Source: a virus
Direction: 5' to 3' (one strand)
IMG/VR virus record: IMGVR_UViG_3300046010_004814
Coordinates: 1-24,019 of that record
DNA length: 24,019 nucleotides
Shown: piece by piece, positions 533-22,151 of the stretch
Position numbering within the stretch: position 1 is the stretch's first letter
Layout: each line of letters opens with the position of its first letter
Notes under the pieces: generated by a model
Seen by the model: the letters and a program-made list of their open reading frames with translations, nothing else
Told to the model about the DNA's origin: nothing
Database searches by the model: none
Made by a program: the position numbers and the translations under genes

Positions 533-1625
533 TCTCTGCAAAGAGGGCCAGGCCAAGTACGAGCGTGTAGTGCACTTCTTCGAGAAGATCCTGCGCCACA
601 GCAAGGGGCAGAACGCCGGCAAGCCGTTCACGCTCTTGCCGTGGCAGCACCGCGTCATGCGTGAGCTGTTTGGCCGGCTGAACCCAGACGGCACGCGGAA
701 ACACCGCGTTGGGTACATCGAGCTGCCAAAGAAGCAAGGCAAGAGCACGACGCTCGCCGGCATCGCTCTCTACATGACGGCCTTTGACTCCGAGCCTGGT
801 GCCGAAGTCTACGGTGCGGCCTGCGACCGCGAGCAGGCTGGCATCATCTACCGGGAAGCGGCGTCGATGGTGCGGGCTTCGCCTGCGTTGTCTCGTCACC
901 TTGAGGTGATCGACAGCCGCAAGACGATCGTGCATAAGGCGAGCAATTCGTTCTACCGGGTGCTCTCTGCCGATGCGTTTCGTGCCGAGGGGCTGAACAT
1001 CCACGCTCTGCTGTTTGACGAGCTGCACGCCCAGCGTGACCGCCGCCTGTGGGACGCTCTCCGCTACGGCGGTGCAGCTCGTCGGCAGCCGCTCATTCTC
1101 TCTATCACCACTGCCGGCTTTGACCGGAAGTCGATCTGTTGGGAGCAGCACGCCTACGCTGAGAGGTGCATTGCGGACCCCAAGGTAGACCCAGCCTTCT
1201 TTGGGTGCATCTACGCCGCGTCGCCACAGGACGATTGGAAAGACCCAGAGACGTGGCACAAGGCCAACCCGTCGCTGGGCCAGACAATCACACTTGAGTC
1301 ATTTGCCGCCGATGCCCGAGAGGCCGAGCAGAGCCCAAGCAAGCTCAACTCGTTTTTGAGATACCGGGGTTGCGCCCCCTGGCCTAGCGGCTGGGGGGCG
1401 CGACCCAAAGACGGCTCAACGTATGGACAACACAGGACGTGCGGTGGCTCTCGCCTGACAACTGGGCCAAGTGCGGCAAGCCGCTGGCCGGCGATCTCGA
1501 GCAGCGGGAGTGGTTCGCGGGCCTCGACTTGGCGACTACGTACGACCTGTCGGCATTCGTCATGGTTAGCCAGGCCGAGGATGGCACGTTCGACGTGTTG
1601 CCGTATTTCTGGGTGCCACAAGTGA
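471..1625 (+). CDS. terL: Terminase large subunit, N-terminal ATPase part (interrupted gene)
   Basis: ATPase half of the packaging motor. Visible motifs are a Walker A-like KKQGKST at about residues 87-93, Walker B LLFDE at about 180-184 and a coupling-motif-like SITTAG at 211-216. Homology runs to residue 299 (Arg, CGG at 1365-1367), in the sequence LNSFLRYR. The frame then enters a hairpin insert and continues through 85 unrelated residues to a stop at 1626. The family-typical continuation LNVWTTQDVRWL lies in the -1 frame from 1415. Without recoding, the product would be a 384-residue ATPase without nuclease. Start GTG 471 gives a basic, Ser-rich N-terminus; GTG 525 is an alternative with only 8 nt overlap with terS. 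Together with the downstream part, minus 47 nt, the protein is 533 residues, a normal length. Confidence 0.85.
   Translation: MARKKSRPTKSKSSSSSTVLDLCKEGQAKYERVVHFFEKILRHSKGQNAGKPFTLLPWQHRVMRELFGRLNPDGTRKHRVGYIELPKKQGKSTTLAGIALYMTAFDSEPGAEVYGAACDREQAGIIYREAASMVRASPALSRHLEVIDSRKTIVHKASNSFYRVLSADAFRAEGLNIHALLFDELHAQRDRRLWDALRYGGAARRQPLILSITTAGFDRKSICWEQHAYAERCIADPKVDPAFFGCIYAASPQDDWKDPETWHKANPSLGQTITLESFAADAREAEQSPSKLNSFLRYRGCAPWPSGWGARPKDGSTYGQHRTCGGSRLTTGPSAASRWPAISSSGSGSRASTWRLRTTCRHSSWLARPRMARSTCCRISGCHK
1367..1414 (+). other. 47-nt hairpin insert in terL, candidate translational-bypass element
   Basis: Bases 1368-1414 separate two exactly abutting parts of the terminase. Arm 1367-1384 pairs with 1389-1406: 18 pairs including three G-U wobbles, with loop TAGC (1385-1388). 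The sequence AAAGA (1407-1411) follows, then CGG (1412-1414). The last upstream codon, 1365-1367, is also CGG, so take-off and landing codons match with 44 nt between them. The insert length is not a multiple of three. No ordinary X-XXY-YYZ slippery heptamer is visible, and a plain -1 shift would leave about 16 foreign residues. T4 gene 60 has a similar architecture: GGA/GGA, a 50-nt gap and a hairpin. Alternatives are an inactivating insertion of a REP-like palindrome, or RNA-level removal. Confidence 0.6.
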
Positions 1626-4252: not shown

Positions 4253-5578
4253 ATGGACCGCCTCTCGACCCTTCGTGCCGAAGCCGCCGACGTTGCCGAG
4301 CGCCTCGAGTCGCTCGCTGCCCTCGACACCAGCGACAACGCTGCCGACACCAACGCCCGTGACCTTGAGCTCAAGGGTCTGACCGAGCGTGCCACGAAGC
4401 TCGCCGGCCAGATCGACTTCGAGACGAAGGTGGCCGAGTCGGCCAAGAACCTTCGCAGCGTTGCCGAGCGTTGCAGCCCGGCCCCCGAGGTGCGTGAGGA
4501 GCCCAAGGCGGCCCGCATTGATGCCGTCCGCGACAGCCGCACGCTGAAGGCGTTCCGGTCGCACGAGGACGCCTACCGCGTCGGCCGGTGGCTGCAGGCC
4601 ACGTTTGCCGGCGATTCCGAGGCCAAGCGGTGGTGCCATGACCACGGCGTCGAGGCCCGCACGATGGTCGGCGGCGTCAACTCGCTCGGCGGGTTCAGCG
4701 TGCCGGATGAACTGTCCAGCACGATCATCCGCAACGTCGAGACCTACGGCGTGGCTCCGACGGCCCTTCAGAACTTCAACATGTCGTCGGACGTGCTGTC
4801 GATCCCGAAGCGGATCAGCGGCGTGTCGGGTGCGTGGATGGGTGAAAACGCCGAGTTTTCTTACAGCGACATGACGGGCACTCAGGTGCAGCTGGTCGCC
4901 CAGAAGTTCGGCGTGGCCACCAAGGTTTCCAACGAGCTCTTCGCCGATGGCGTTGGCGTGGCGGACCTGATCGCGACCGAGCACTCGCTGGCTATCGCCA
5001 AGGCTCTTGACGAAGCGGTGTTCATCGGCGACGGAACCAGCACCTACGGCGGCCACTACGGCGTGACTGTCAAGCTGACCGACGCGGCCTACTCGGCTTC
5101 GCTCGTCACGGCGGCCGCCAACAACGGTGCCTTTGAGACGCTCGACAAGGAAGACTTCCTGTCGGCCATGGCGAAGCTGCCCCGCTACGCCCTGCCGGGC
5201 GCCCGCTGGTACATCTCGCCGGCCGGCTACCACGCTTCGATGCAGCGTCTGGATCTGGCCCAAGGCGGCAGCGTGAGCGTCGCCCAGGGCTTTGGCCTGA
5301 CGTTCCTTGGGTACCCGGTGGTTCTGGTTCACTCGATGAACAGCACGCTGGGTTCGGACTTGTCAAAGGTCAAGTGCCTCTTCGGCGATCTCGCCATGGC
5401 TGGTGCCCTCGGGCTTCGCCAGGGCTACCAGCTGCGGGTGAGCCAGGAGCGGTTCGTGGAGCTCGACCAGACGCTTGTTTCCGGTGTTGTGAGGGCTACG
5501 GCGAACTTCCACAGCCTTGGCTCGACCAGCGAAGTTGGCCCGGTTGTTGCCCTGCGTACACACTCTGCGAACGCCTGA
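4253..5578 (+). CDS. Major capsid protein (HK97 fold)
   Basis: Builds the icosahedral shell. The 441-residue protein begins with about 90 residues of predicted coiled-coil delta domain (LSTLRAEAADVAERLESLAA onwards), which serves as internal scaffold and is removed by the protease. The mature part follows, with landmarks GGVNSLGGFSVPDEL, WMGENAEFSYSDMTG, KVSNELFAD and GDGTSTYGGHYG. ATG 4253 is preceded by GGAG (4242-4245) at 7-nt spacing; an upstream in-frame start at 4124 would run through the small zinc-ribbon gene and is unlikely. Order portal-protease-capsid is the HK97 order. Confidence 0.93.
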   Translation: MDRLSTLRAEAADVAERLESLAALDTSDNAADTNARDLELKGLTERATKLAGQIDFETKVAESAKNLRSVAERCSPAPEVREEPKAARIDAVRDSRTLKAFRSHEDAYRVGRWLQATFAGDSEAKRWCHDHGVEARTMVGGVNSLGGFSVPDELSSTIIRNVETYGVAPTALQNFNMSSDVLSIPKRISGVSGAWMGENAEFSYSDMTGTQVQLVAQKFGVATKVSNELFADGVGVADLIATEHSLAIAKALDEAVFIGDGTSTYGGHYGVTVKLTDAAYSASLVTAAANNGAFETLDKEDFLSAMAKLPRYALPGARWYISPAGYHASMQRLDLAQGGSVSVAQGFGLTFLGYPVVLVHSMNSTLGSDLSKVKCLFGDLAMAGALGLRQGYQLRVSQERFVELDQTLVSGVVRATANFHSLGSTSEVGPVVALRTHSANA

Positions 5579-5607: not shown

Positions 5608-6048
5608 ATGATTCCAGTTGCAGCTACCAAGAGCGTGGTGTCGGGCAAGAACTCGGTCTACACCTCGTCCCAGACGAATACCCTGACGATCGACACGCTG
5701 GGCTTTGACTACGCCAGCATCGACGTGATCTACGCATCGCAGGTTTCGACCTCGAGCGTGGCTCAGACGTTGACGCTTCGCCAGGGCGACGCCAGCAACG
5801 CAGTGACCGAGACTGTGACCGGGTTTACCGGTACGCTCGCCCCGGCGGCCTACGCTGGCCAAACCGTGACCAGCACGATGACGGTCAGCCGGATCGAAGT
5901 CGACCTGCGTGGGAAGAAGCGCTACATCGCGGTGGCCACGTCGCCCAACACGGACAACACCGTGGTGATCGCGGCCCGGCTCTCGCGTGCCGAGGAAGGC
6001 CCGTACGACGCCACCACGAAGGGTGTGCGGCTCAACACGGCCGGCTGA
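5608..6048 (+). CDS. Probable small head protein (decoration-like)
   Basis: A 146-residue, Ser/Thr-rich protein with alternating hydrophobic strands (NTLTIDTLGFDYASIDVIYA, QTLTLRQGD, IEVDLRGKKRYIAVATS, VVIAARLSRAE), suggesting an all-beta fold. It follows the capsid gene by 29 nt with a good Shine-Dalgarno (AGGAG, 5592-5596). Proteins in this slot are often capsid decoration or stabilising proteins, and in several phages an abundant virion protein. I do not recognise a named family; the role is inferred from position, size and predicted fold. It is the last gene before a terminator-like hairpin, consistent with a high-level capsid transcript. Confidence 0.65.
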   Translation: MIPVAATKSVVSGKNSVYTSSQTNTLTIDTLGFDYASIDVIYASQVSTSSVAQTLTLRQGDASNAVTETVTGFTGTLAPAAYAGQTVTSTMTVSRIEVDLRGKKRYIAVATSPNTDNTVVIAARLSRAEEGPYDATTKGVRLNTAG

Positions 6049-6070: not shown

Positions 6071-6114
6071 GAGCGGGCGGCTCACGCAACGTGGGCCGCC
6101 CGTTCTCGTTTTCG
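6071..6114 (+). terminator. Rho-independent terminator-like hairpin after capsid genes
   Basis: Arms 6071-6086 and 6090-6105 can form 16 pairs, two of them G-U, with a 3-nt loop. A T-rich run (TCGTTTTC, 6106-6113) follows. It lies in the 76-nt gap between the head protein gene and the glycosyltransferase gene. Partial termination would raise capsid transcript relative to downstream connector and tail genes. The U-tract is interrupted, so termination efficiency may be modest. Confidence 0.7.
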
Positions 6115-6124
6115 TGAGGTACGC

Positions 6125-6865
6125 ATGCTCGTTCAGGTTGGCGGCACGTCGGTCGATGTCCGAGTCGAGGCTGTCTTCTCCATGCCTCGGCTCGGCTTTA
6201 ACGACAACTTCTTCACGTGGGCTCAGGCGCTCATGCCGCTCGGCATCCGCCCCACGAAAGTTTCAGGGGCATTTTGGGACCAATGCCAAGAACGTGTTTT
6301 TGAGACGTTCATCGACAAATGTGAGTATTTATTGGCTGTCGATTACGACACGTTTTTTACCAAGGAAGACTTGGAACATCTTTTTTCGTTGGCTCTGGCG
6401 TTCCAGTGCGATGCGCTCACTGGCTTACAGACCAAGCGTGAGGACGGCAGGCCCATGCTCACGCTAAAAGGCACGCTTGGAAAAACCGCTAACGGCGAGC
6501 AGGCACACCTTCCTATGTCGTGGTTCGCAGAGCCTGTGCAGGAAGTCGATAGCGCTCATTTCGGGTGCACCATCATTTCGACAGCCGCCCTGAAGCGAAC
6601 GCCGAAGCCGTGGTTTCGCAGCGAGCCCGGCCCAGACAATTCGTGGAACGAAGGCAGGCTGGATGCTGATATTTGGTTTTGGAAGAACTTCCGTGAGCGC
6701 GGCGGCAACCGGCTGTATGTCACGCCCCGCGTCGTGCTGGGCCATGGAGAATACATGGTGACGTGGCCAGGCCGTGATCTAAGCAAGCCTGTTTTTCAGT
6801 GGGCCACCGAATACTGCAACACGGGCAAAAGACCGGAAACTGCATGGAGCGTGCCGCAATCATGA
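6125..6865 (+). CDS. Glycosyltransferase-like protein
   Basis: A 246-residue protein resembling GT-A (family 2-like) glycosyltransferases. EYLLAVDYDTFF (about residues 67-78) provides a DxD motif for metal and nucleotide-sugar binding, and DADIWFWKNFRERG near residue 180 resembles the acceptor-side acidic region. It starts at ATG 6125 behind GTGAGG. It lies inside the head operon after the terminator hairpin and is locally richer in A+T than its neighbours (about 6240-6420), which suggests separate acquisition. A likely role is modification of virion or host surface, but neither donor nor acceptor can be told from sequence. Alternative: a non-catalytic GT-A-fold protein. Confidence 0.65.
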   Translation: MLVQVGGTSVDVRVEAVFSMPRLGFNDNFFTWAQALMPLGIRPTKVSGAFWDQCQERVFETFIDKCEYLLAVDYDTFFTKEDLEHLFSLALAFQCDALTGLQTKREDGRPMLTLKGTLGKTANGEQAHLPMSWFAEPVQEVDSAHFGCTIISTAALKRTPKPWFRSEPGPDNSWNEGRLDADIWFWKNFRERGGNRLYVTPRVVLGHGEYMVTWPGRDLSKPVFQWATEYCNTGKRPETAWSVPQS

Positions 6866-15998: not shown

Positions 15999-16454
15999 AT
16001 GACAGCAGCTTTTGAATTGGCGAACGAAGAACTGCGTGCGGCCGTGAAGTCTCGGCTGGACCACACGCCGGCCGATGATCCGAAGATGGTGGGCTACCAG
16101 CGCGAGCAGCGGCTGCTCGGCGACTCGCTCCTAGCGGATTACGTGCACCCGACGAGCCAGGCGTACTTCGACCTGCTCGACAGGATGAAGGCTCTTCACT
16201 CCAGCAAGAGCCGGGACTACGGGAGCGAACACGACCCGCTGGCCAACATTCGCAACGGTGCCCTGTTCGTGGGCATTGAGCCATGGAAGGGTGCCATGGT
16301 TCGATTGAGCGACAAGGTCACGCGCCTCGCCACGTTCAACCGCACGGGCCGCCTCGAGCACGAAGGCGTGGAAGACAACCTCATGGATCTGGCGTCCTAC
16401 GCACTGCTTGCCTTGCTGCTCTACCGGGAGGAGCACAGTGGGTCCGCTGACTGA
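15999..16454 (+). CDS. DUF1599/MazG-like nucleotide-associated protein
   Basis: A 151-residue helical protein with the DUF1599-type pattern: SSKSRDYGSEHDPLANIRNG, then GAMVRLSDKVTRLATF and EGVEDNLMDLASYALLALLL. The acidic DK and ExxxNLxDLxxYA residues fit an all-alpha NTP pyrophosphohydrolase metal site. This domain is linked in phages to nucleotide modification or dNTP pool control (established for related families, inferred here). I see no partner enzyme for DNA base modification in the window. ATG 15999 follows AAAGGGA. The end overlaps the next gene. Confidence 0.72.
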   Translation: MTAAFELANEELRAAVKSRLDHTPADDPKMVGYQREQRLLGDSLLADYVHPTSQAYFDLLDRMKALHSSKSRDYGSEHDPLANIRNGALFVGIEPWKGAMVRLSDKVTRLATFNRTGRLEHEGVEDNLMDLASYALLALLLYREEHSGSAD

Positions 16455-20103: not shown

Positions 20104-20406
20104 ATGTCCGACTACTACGCTGAAACGCTCGACACGCTGCCGCTCTTTCGGCGGACAGATCCGGTGACGAGCAAGGCCGCAGCTGCTGACGCGAAGACGT
20201 TCCGAGGCGAGCACCACGCCGCGATCCTCGAGGCGCTGAGCCAAGGCCCGGCCGGGGCCAGTGGGATTGCGGCACGGTGTGGGCTGCTCGCGCACCAGGT
20301 CAACAAGCGGATCCACGAGCTCGCCAAGTGCGGGCGGATTGCGGAGACGGGCAACATCGTGACCAGCGCCAGCGGGCGAGGGGAACGGGAGTGGAGGGTG
20401 TCGTGA
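20104..20406 (+). CDS. Winged-helix DNA-binding protein
   Basis: A 100-residue protein with DPVTSKAAAADAKTFRGEHH, a segment common in small phage proteins, followed by a winged helix (HAAILEALSQGPAGASGIAA, then RCGLLAHQVNKRIHELAKCG, with wing IAETGNIVTSASGRGEREW). It probably binds DNA, with unknown target. Start ATG 20104 is preceded by AAGGA. The stop overlaps the GTG start of the helicase gene (GTGA, 20403-20406). Confidence 0.72.
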   Translation: MSDYYAETLDTLPLFRRTDPVTSKAAAADAKTFRGEHHAAILEALSQGPAGASGIAARCGLLAHQVNKRIHELAKCGRIAETGNIVTSASGRGEREWRVS

Positions 20407-22151
20407 GGTTGTTTACCAAGACACAAAAGCAGGCAGTCGAGCTTGTCACTGGGAAGACAGGGCAAGGCGATCACGTGATTCCTCACAGCAAAGGAGGGCA
20501 GACTAGCGTGGAAAACTGTCAGTTGATTTCAGGCGCAGCCAACGCAAAGAAGGGCTCTTTCTTTTTTAAGCCGCGACGCTGGCAAGAAGAATTCTTCCGC
20601 CAATGGATCGCGCGCACGATCAACACGTTTCTCTTGATCGTCATTCCCGGAGGCGGGAAGACAATGGCCGCCCTTGAGTCTGCGCGTCGATGGATGGCAG
20701 CAGGGTCAGACCGTCGCCTTATCGTTGTTGTGCCAACGGACAACCTTCGGGAGCAGTGGCAAGAAGAGGCTGTAAAGTTTGGTATCCAACTCCAGACCAA
20801 GGAGTTTGGCACGAACTTCAAGCACGGCTTTCAAGGCGGCGTTGTTTCTTACAGCCTCGTTGCCAGCCAGCCGCTGGTGTTTCGCAAGCTCTGCTCTGTA
20901 GCGCCGACAATGGTGATCTTTGATGAGATTCACCACTGCGGCGAGGAGGCCAGTTTTGGCCGAGGTGTCGGCCAGGCCTTTGAACTCGCGGCCGAGCGAC
21001 TGCTGCTATCTGGCACCGCATGGAGAAGCGATGGGACCGCTATCCCGTGGGTTCAATACGACGGCAATGGGTTTGCCGTAGCCGATTACTCGTACGACTA
21101 CCCGCACGCACTTACCGATGACGTTGTCCGGTTTCTGGTTTTTGACTACTCGCGCGGAACTATTACGCATGACCTGACTGGAGACAGTCAAACGCTTTCC
21201 AGTGAAAGCACAGAGGACGACGCCGCTCGACTGCTTCGAAGGCTGCTTGACGCTCGCGGCGAGTTTGTCCGCGAGCAGATACGACAGGCGCACCAGAGGC
21301 TTTTGGACGTGCGAGCATCTTTCCCGGACGCCGGGGCTCTGGCTGCCTGCATTGACCAGACGCACGCCGCCATGGTGGCAAATGTGATCTGCGAGGTAAC
21401 TGGTTGCGAGCCAAGCGTTATCGTTAGCGACGACAAAGTTGAGAACGATACTGTTCGTTCGTTTCGTGACAGCAAGAAGGAGTGGATCGTAGCGGTTCGC
21501 AAGGTAAGCGAAGGCACCGACATCAAGCGGCTTCAAGTTCTCTGCTACCTAACGAACACAACTGCGGAACTGTTTTTCCGGCAACTTGTCGGCCGCGTTT
21601 CTCGTTATCGAGGCAATGAGGACCGCGAGGCGTATGTCTATCTGCCTGCCGATCCTCGCTTGATTGCCTGCGCACAGAACATCGAAAACGCACAGGTGCA
21701 GGCGCTAAAGAACCAGCGAGATGCCGATGAGGTCGAGCGGGCTCCGCTGGATCGCCAAACCGGGTCGCTGTTTGATTCTTTCTCAACGGCCCATGACGGC
21801 ACCGACCTTGTCATGATCGGAAGCGAGGCTGTGTCAGAGGACGTAGCAAGGCAAATCTCGCAGATCGCAGAGGCTGAGGCGATCCCGATGCAGAAGGTGC
21901 TGGCCGTCATGCAGCGGCTTGGAGTTGGCGGCCAGCAGTCGAGCCCGCAGCCAGTGGCCGTTCGCAGTAAAGAAGAGGAAATGGATGACCTTCGCAAGAA
22001 GTGCAACAAGCAGGCTTTTCGGCTGTCCAAGTTGGCTAAGTGCAGGCCAGACGAAGTTAACGGAAAGTTCAAGCCGCAGAACCAAATGACGGAAGACGAA
22101 CTGCGCCGCAAGCTGCGGGCGATCCTGTCGGAGATCGCCAAGTATGCATGA
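20403..22151 (+). CDS. HNH-SF2 helicase fusion protein
   Basis: A 582-residue protein. Residues about 20-51 form an HNH-like motif: GDHVIPHSKGG (D23, H24), VENCQLI (N38) and ANAKKG (N47). The usual zinc cysteines before DH and near the end are missing. An SF2 helicase follows: motif I PGGGKT (82-87), motif II DEIH (174-177), motif III SGT (203-205) and motif VI QLVGRVSR (394-401). The C-terminal 80 residues are charged and helical. GTG 20403 overlaps the preceding stop; longer frames run through that gene. A DNA-processing or replication role fits the operon; restriction or defence roles are alternatives. Confidence 0.8.
   Translation: MRLFTKTQKQAVELVTGKTGQGDHVIPHSKGGQTSVENCQLISGAANAKKGSFFFKPRRWQEEFFRQWIARTINTFLLIVIPGGGKTMAALESARRWMAAGSDRRLIVVVPTDNLREQWQEEAVKFGIQLQTKEFGTNFKHGFQGGVVSYSLVASQPLVFRKLCSVAPTMVIFDEIHHCGEEASFGRGVGQAFELAAERLLLSGTAWRSDGTAIPWVQYDGNGFAVADYSYDYPHALTDDVVRFLVFDYSRGTITHDLTGDSQTLSSESTEDDAARLLRRLLDARGEFVREQIRQAHQRLLDVRASFPDAGALAACIDQTHAAMVANVICEVTGCEPSVIVSDDKVENDTVRSFRDSKKEWIVAVRKVSEGTDIKRLQVLCYLTNTTAELFFRQLVGRVSRYRGNEDREAYVYLPADPRLIACAQNIENAQVQALKNQRDADEVERAPLDRQTGSLFDSFSTAHDGTDLVMIGSEAVSEDVARQISQIAEAEAIPMQKVLAVMQRLGVGGQQSSPQPVAVRSKEEEMDDLRKKCNKQAFRLSKLAKCRPDEVNGKFKPQNQMTEDELRRKLRAILSEIAKYA

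Follow-up and report, generated by a model that had tools for sequence, protein, structure and literature searches.

The window analysed here, the whole 24,019-nt stretch of an IMG/VR virus record, carries tailed-phage genes for head, packaging and tail, among them a terminase gene (terL) that is interrupted by a short insert. All features of this gene lie on the + strand: its first part (471-1367; GTG start, 299 codons, phrog_9) encodes the ATPase domain and the start of the nuclease domain, an element of 47 nt delimited by comparing the junction with relatives occupies 1368-1414, and the second part (1415-2119; assigned by profile matches and selection) resumes at a CTC (Leu) codon and encodes the nuclease domain. 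As the sequence-only reading had proposed, the gene is continuous only without 1368-1414, with the nuclease part in another frame from 1415 onwards. The Pfam TerL_nuclease profile is matched on both sides of the insert, at its positions 4-62 upstream and 65-281 downstream, and in uninterrupted relatives, which reach 96% identity, RYR is followed by LNVW with no gap (NSFLRYR/LNVWTTQD). Without skipping, the product would be the 384 residues predicted earlier, as the ORF at 471-1625 reads through the insert. Elsewhere in the window, a strong palindrome (GAGCGGGCGGCTCACGCAACGTGGGCCGCCCGTTC) at 6071-6105, between the genes at 5608-6048 and 6125-6865, recurs at 2166-2202 of a further locus (L189) and is terminator-like rather than a bypass element, and a single ORF at 20277-22148, whose GTG start may be too early, combines an HNH motif with ResIII/DEAD helicase matches.

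Most of the insert is taken up by a hairpin of 18 bp (1367-1406, loop TAGC at 1385-1388), defined by folding and covariation and followed by an unpaired tail, AAAGA (1407-1411), that differs among carriers. The proposed take-off codon, CGG (Arg) at 1365-1367, is repeated at 1412-1414, the proposed landing codon; hairpin and codon pair alike had been described beforehand and were confirmed. The region 1355-1425 has a folding energy of -46.5 kcal/mol, whereas its shuffled versions average -26.6 (z = -6.07), and none of 200 shuffles folds as well. In the upstream exon, CTCAA (1344-1348) and TTGAG (1356-1360) could form a 5' stem-loop (1344-1360), and TTGAG alternatively pairs with CTCAA at 1415-1419; all seven site-A carriers have the TTGAG motif, in place of which insert-free relatives have CTGCG or similar sequences. 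A 47-nt insert stands at the identical place in six other phage contigs, its stem bases differing but compensating, and these contigs, together with related inserts at six other sites, exclude chance.

The window insert belongs to a previously unreported hairpin family with at least seven sites and at least 50 phage sequence contexts; within the open-access literature, the scope of the search (subscription journals and bioRxiv preprints lay outside it), no report of a mobile bypassed-hairpin family in phages was found. The search of related phages suggested earlier thus brought up numerous carriers, and insert-free relatives are common. The junction was aligned in about 150 related loci, and pattern scans of IMG/VR then completed a set of 53 distinct terL contexts on IMG/VR contigs, distributed over six terL sites: A after RYR (7 contexts), B after RRLW (33), C after LLFDEL (4), D after RAEGL (7), F after IEVP (1, L260) and G after IEL (1, L308). 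A seventh site, E, lies in another gene, a homolog of window 6125-6865, and was seen in G018, L259, L261 and L227. Walker B is flanked by sites D, C and B, whereas F and G adjoin Walker A and A falls in the nuclease domain. The cores of the elements are related (GGGTTGNGCCC, GGCTTGNGCCC or GGCTTTCGCCC, plus complement); the elements have a common architecture, a hairpin of about 18-24 bp with an unpaired 3' tail, and are 47, 49, 50, 51 or 52 nt long, 50, 51 and 52 nt all occurring at site B alone. A covariance model built from 13 elements recovers carriers and found nothing strong in the insert-free phages searched.

Several searches beyond these carriers gave no further relatives of the element. 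No Rfam family, including group I and II introns and other ribozymes, matched the window or five other carriers, and 15 other strong hairpins in 1.9 Mb of phage sequence were not recognised as elements. The core pattern had 21 matches in GTDB genomes; the 15 inspected revealed no obvious bypass insert in a cellular gene, and as candidate host copies they were set aside because they look like terminators or chance. Scattering of the REP type, once considered for the hairpin, is contradicted within the window, where it occurs once.

Covariation supports the hairpin. At sites A, C and D taken together, 99.6% of cells are paired, with 21 changed on both sides, a result reached by none of 500 shuffles; site B hairpin covariation exceeds all shuffles on its own (0 of 500), the signal of site A alone being weaker. 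Departures from pairing at A, C and D are mostly G-U on the mRNA strand (27 cells, versus one unpaired), which points to a fold in mRNA rather than a DNA palindrome. These comparisons show, as far as sequence evidence reaches, that the hairpin forms in the mRNA sense and is under selection.

Beyond the insert, every terL carrier keeps an open frame of 234-452 codons, except in L260, where it runs into an intein and off the locus end, and at the site-D copy in L218, where it meets a second element after 134 codons. In L232 a landing-frame stop (TAA) immediately precedes the landing codon, and in L280, L290 and L303 one (TGA) immediately precedes the codon of resumption, so the landing frame cannot be entered earlier. 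Over the first eight codons after the insert, pN against pS is 0.000 against 0.552 at site A, 0.027 against 0.456 at B, 0.028 against 0.592 at C and 0.119 against 0.594 at D, whereas in the other frames pN equals or exceeds pS over the first 40 codons; selection on these first eight codons implies that protein is translated from the first codon after the insert. With insert lengths in all three phases, an open and selected downstream frame, stops immediately upstream and distant start codons, it is close to certain, on these comparative grounds, that the element is skipped or removed without trace.

The same observations weigh against three readings in which nothing is skipped, since programmed frameshifting, re-initiation and gene death do not fit the combination of lengths, stops, distant starts and selection. 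A split gene, whose second polypeptide would start independently at or after the insert, could draw on a GTG at codon 9 past the insert in the window and on a TTG inside the hairpin of some carriers, but an in-frame stop follows the hairpin TTG in the window, L200, L233 and L235, the first landing-frame ATG, GTG or TTG at site B lies 13-158 codons downstream despite purifying selection right after the insert, and division at C, D, F or G would cut the ATPase domain beside its catalytic motifs; we regard it as very improbable. Frameshifting through a translated hairpin would profit from the fact that 47 and 50 are both 2 modulo 3, so that one shift could serve both lengths, yet site B comprises all three phases and the stops in L232, L280, L290 and L303 close the landing frame, which makes it scarcely credible. 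Inactivation by a palindromic insert, named in the sequence-only reading as the main alternative, is refuted by the many carriers and by purifying selection on both gene parts; although every carrier is an environmental contig and none is cultivated, an inactive gene or an assembly error would have to account for 53 distinct contexts from many samples, for conserved hairpins and for selection on either side of the insert, and carries almost no weight.

The codons that frame the element bear on how it is skipped. At the sites other than B (A, C, D, E, F and G), all 20 distinct elements have, just before resumption, a codon that agrees with the take-off codon at its first two positions, and in 17 the third agrees as well, compared with 0 or 1 of 20 at ten other offsets. 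The three imperfect pairs differ in the third base only (CGG/CGA in L233, CTG/CTA in L225, TGG/TGC in G018), and the site-E copy of L259 is matched in full (TGG/TGG). The direct repeat comprises the in-phase codon and nothing more at A, C, F and G, and is one base longer at D; the tail just upstream of the landing codon differs among elements, and all seven junctions fall on a codon boundary. For A, C, D, F and G the codon match was built into the search expressions; all 53 contexts found without this condition were assigned, and none was lost. At site B the take-off codon is TGG, but AGA, CGC, CGA or TGA precedes resumption, agreement at the first two positions is limited to 2 of 21 distinct elements, and the middle G alone is common throughout. 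Matches in another register at B, tried by hand with CTC, CGC and later Leu codons, were rejected because none fits all variants.

A codon boundary and an in-phase match are what re-pairing of a peptidyl-tRNA needs and what cutting of RNA would not need, and from this we infer skipping on the ribosome rather than at the RNA level. The explanation we consider probable is that a mobile, non-coding hairpin of about 50 nt is tolerated in essential phage genes because the ribosome bypasses it. In the window, the ribosome would come to the hairpin's 5' base, where the take-off codon CGG stands, the peptidyl-tRNA would detach, the ribosome would pass the folded 47 nt, the tRNA would re-pair with the matching codon at the far end of the element, and translation would resume at CTC (Leu) in the new frame, giving a full-length terminase. 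Translational bypass, as first suggested for the window, is thus the best-supported mechanism, given the in-phase codon match at six of seven sites, lengths of 47-52 nt, a hairpin in the mRNA sense and a downstream part translated from its first codon; what did not survive is the notion of a single new case, replaced by a mobile family at seven sites.

The main objection to bypassing is the unmatched site B, which removal at the RNA level explains as easily and which holds our confidence in bypassing well short of certainty. In that case the hairpin would be a minimal intron, excised from the mRNA, whose flanks are joined again either by an unknown ribozyme or by a nuclease and a ligase of host or phage origin. 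Precise, phase-independent loss fits this equally well, site B would require no codon match, and the flanking exon sequence is unlike that of insert-free homologs and, at A, can pair across the insert; nevertheless, cutting of RNA would not be expected to leave every one of the seven sites on a codon boundary, nor codon repeats that are in phase and vary only at the third position, and Rfam families are unmatched, so that we judge RNA removal unlikely. About 50 nt is, to our knowledge, too small for any known self-splicing intron. A specific form, in which mobile minimal introns of about 50 nt without coding capacity sit in conserved motifs and are cut and joined by an unknown mechanism, would treat the matched codons as 3-bp target duplications and site B as showing that pairing is unneeded; we hold it to be quite unlikely.

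Flanking signals vary from site to site. No stop regularly follows the take-off codon, the zero-frame stop lying 1 to 225 codons away. Over 45 nt, the upstream exon is more stable in carriers than in insert-free homologs at A (p = 0.0025, significance being lost over 36 or 57 nt) and at D (p = 0.0002), not more stable at C and less stable at B, so that a general 5' stem-loop of the T4 kind, considered as a shared feature, is supported only at D and partly at A. At B (p = 1.8e-11) and C (p = 2.5e-05), as exemplified by L292 and L237, carriers have far less structure in the codons that follow the insert than insert-free homologs do. At B this extends to the flank before the insert, and the differences arise from other synonymous codons, such as AGG for Arg.

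The distribution of the elements among phages shows, by comparison of sequences, that they have moved both between phages and between sites. On a terL tree of 117 proteins, built quickly and containing some long branches, seven changes are required to explain the seven carriers at site A and 24 to explain those at site B, where starred branches force at least 15; carriers adjoin insert-free phages, and this scatter indicates movement. The hairpin cores of the window (site A) and L230 (site C) differ in one base of 40, each element having a tail and landing codon fitted to its own site. Moreover, three phages hold two elements: L218 has B and D in one terL (5401-5547), L227 has D in terL and E in another gene (923-958 and 5742-5778), and G018 has B in terL and E (16344-16403 and 21797-21859), the other terL carriers seen having one element in the gene.

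Another mobile element occurs at one of the conserved motifs. On the minus strand of L260, at about 1-1450, terL contains an intein with a LAGLIDADG_3 match directly after the Walker A sequence KKNGK, some 15 nt downstream of element F, a sign that these motifs are homing targets. Among 54 ORFs of the window and two carriers, searched for a homing endonuclease beside terL, there was one HNH match, and no endonuclease could be linked to terL; HNH genes lie near terL in L260 and L308. By analogy with an idea discussed for T4 gene 60, the element might guard its site against a homing endonuclease, but this is a guess.

As for the host, cultivated phages offer no relative at 60% identity or above. 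A terL search of the genomes of one phylum, Planctomycetota, to which the Phycisphaerae MAG G048 belongs, showed genomes (G372, G434, G392, G386) with terL 56-62% identical to that of the window, above any cultivated phage; with identity of up to 62% in the only phylum searched in this way, a planctomycetotal host is plausible.

Among known systems, the closest parallel is T4 gene 60, in which a gap of 50 nt is bypassed from a take-off codon at or next to a stem-loop to a matching landing codon (PMC5009743, PMC3014915, PMC11194080), sliding efficiency falls beyond 56 nt (PMC11194080), and the bypass is apparently unique among T4-like phages, according to a review (PMC3014915). The elements resemble it in a gap of about 50 nt in a phage gene, a stem-loop, matching codons and resumption in another frame, and their gaps stay near 50 nt and under the 56-nt limit. 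However, T4 has one site, a stop right after take-off, a required nascent peptide and a largely unfolded gap, whereas the present family has seven sites, no regular stop and a hairpin of 18-24 bp that fills the gap. The mitochondrial byp elements of Magnusiomyces capitatus, at 81 positions in 12 genes and with codons matched in most but not all (PMC5009743), are likewise numerous short inserts skipped in translation in several genes, mostly with matched codons, yet they concern yeast mitochondrial ribosomes, while the elements described here occur in bacterial viruses and nearly all in one gene; the likeness is one of description, and independent origin is assumed. A possible terminase bypass in Streptomyces phage Hau3 (PMC5009743) shares with the window a phage terminase gene and a proposed bypass, but would depend on the UUA codon, with no hairpin family or mobility reported there. 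Phage homing introns and inteins, too, occupy conserved motifs of essential genes in a scattered distribution; unlike them, the element is about 50 nt long and has no coding capacity and no ribozyme or intein fold.

Until now, programmed bypassing in bacteria has been known mainly from one natural case, T4 gene 60. Seven sites, dozens of natural variants and close insert-free relatives make comparative as well as experimental study possible and open to inquiry which codon pairs, hairpins, gap lengths and flanks work. The terL genes of such phages are likely annotated as truncated. If bypassing is the true mechanism, an essential packaging gene can depend on it, and selfish elements of this kind may occupy a niche in which neither ribozyme nor protein is required, the ribosome itself doing the joining.
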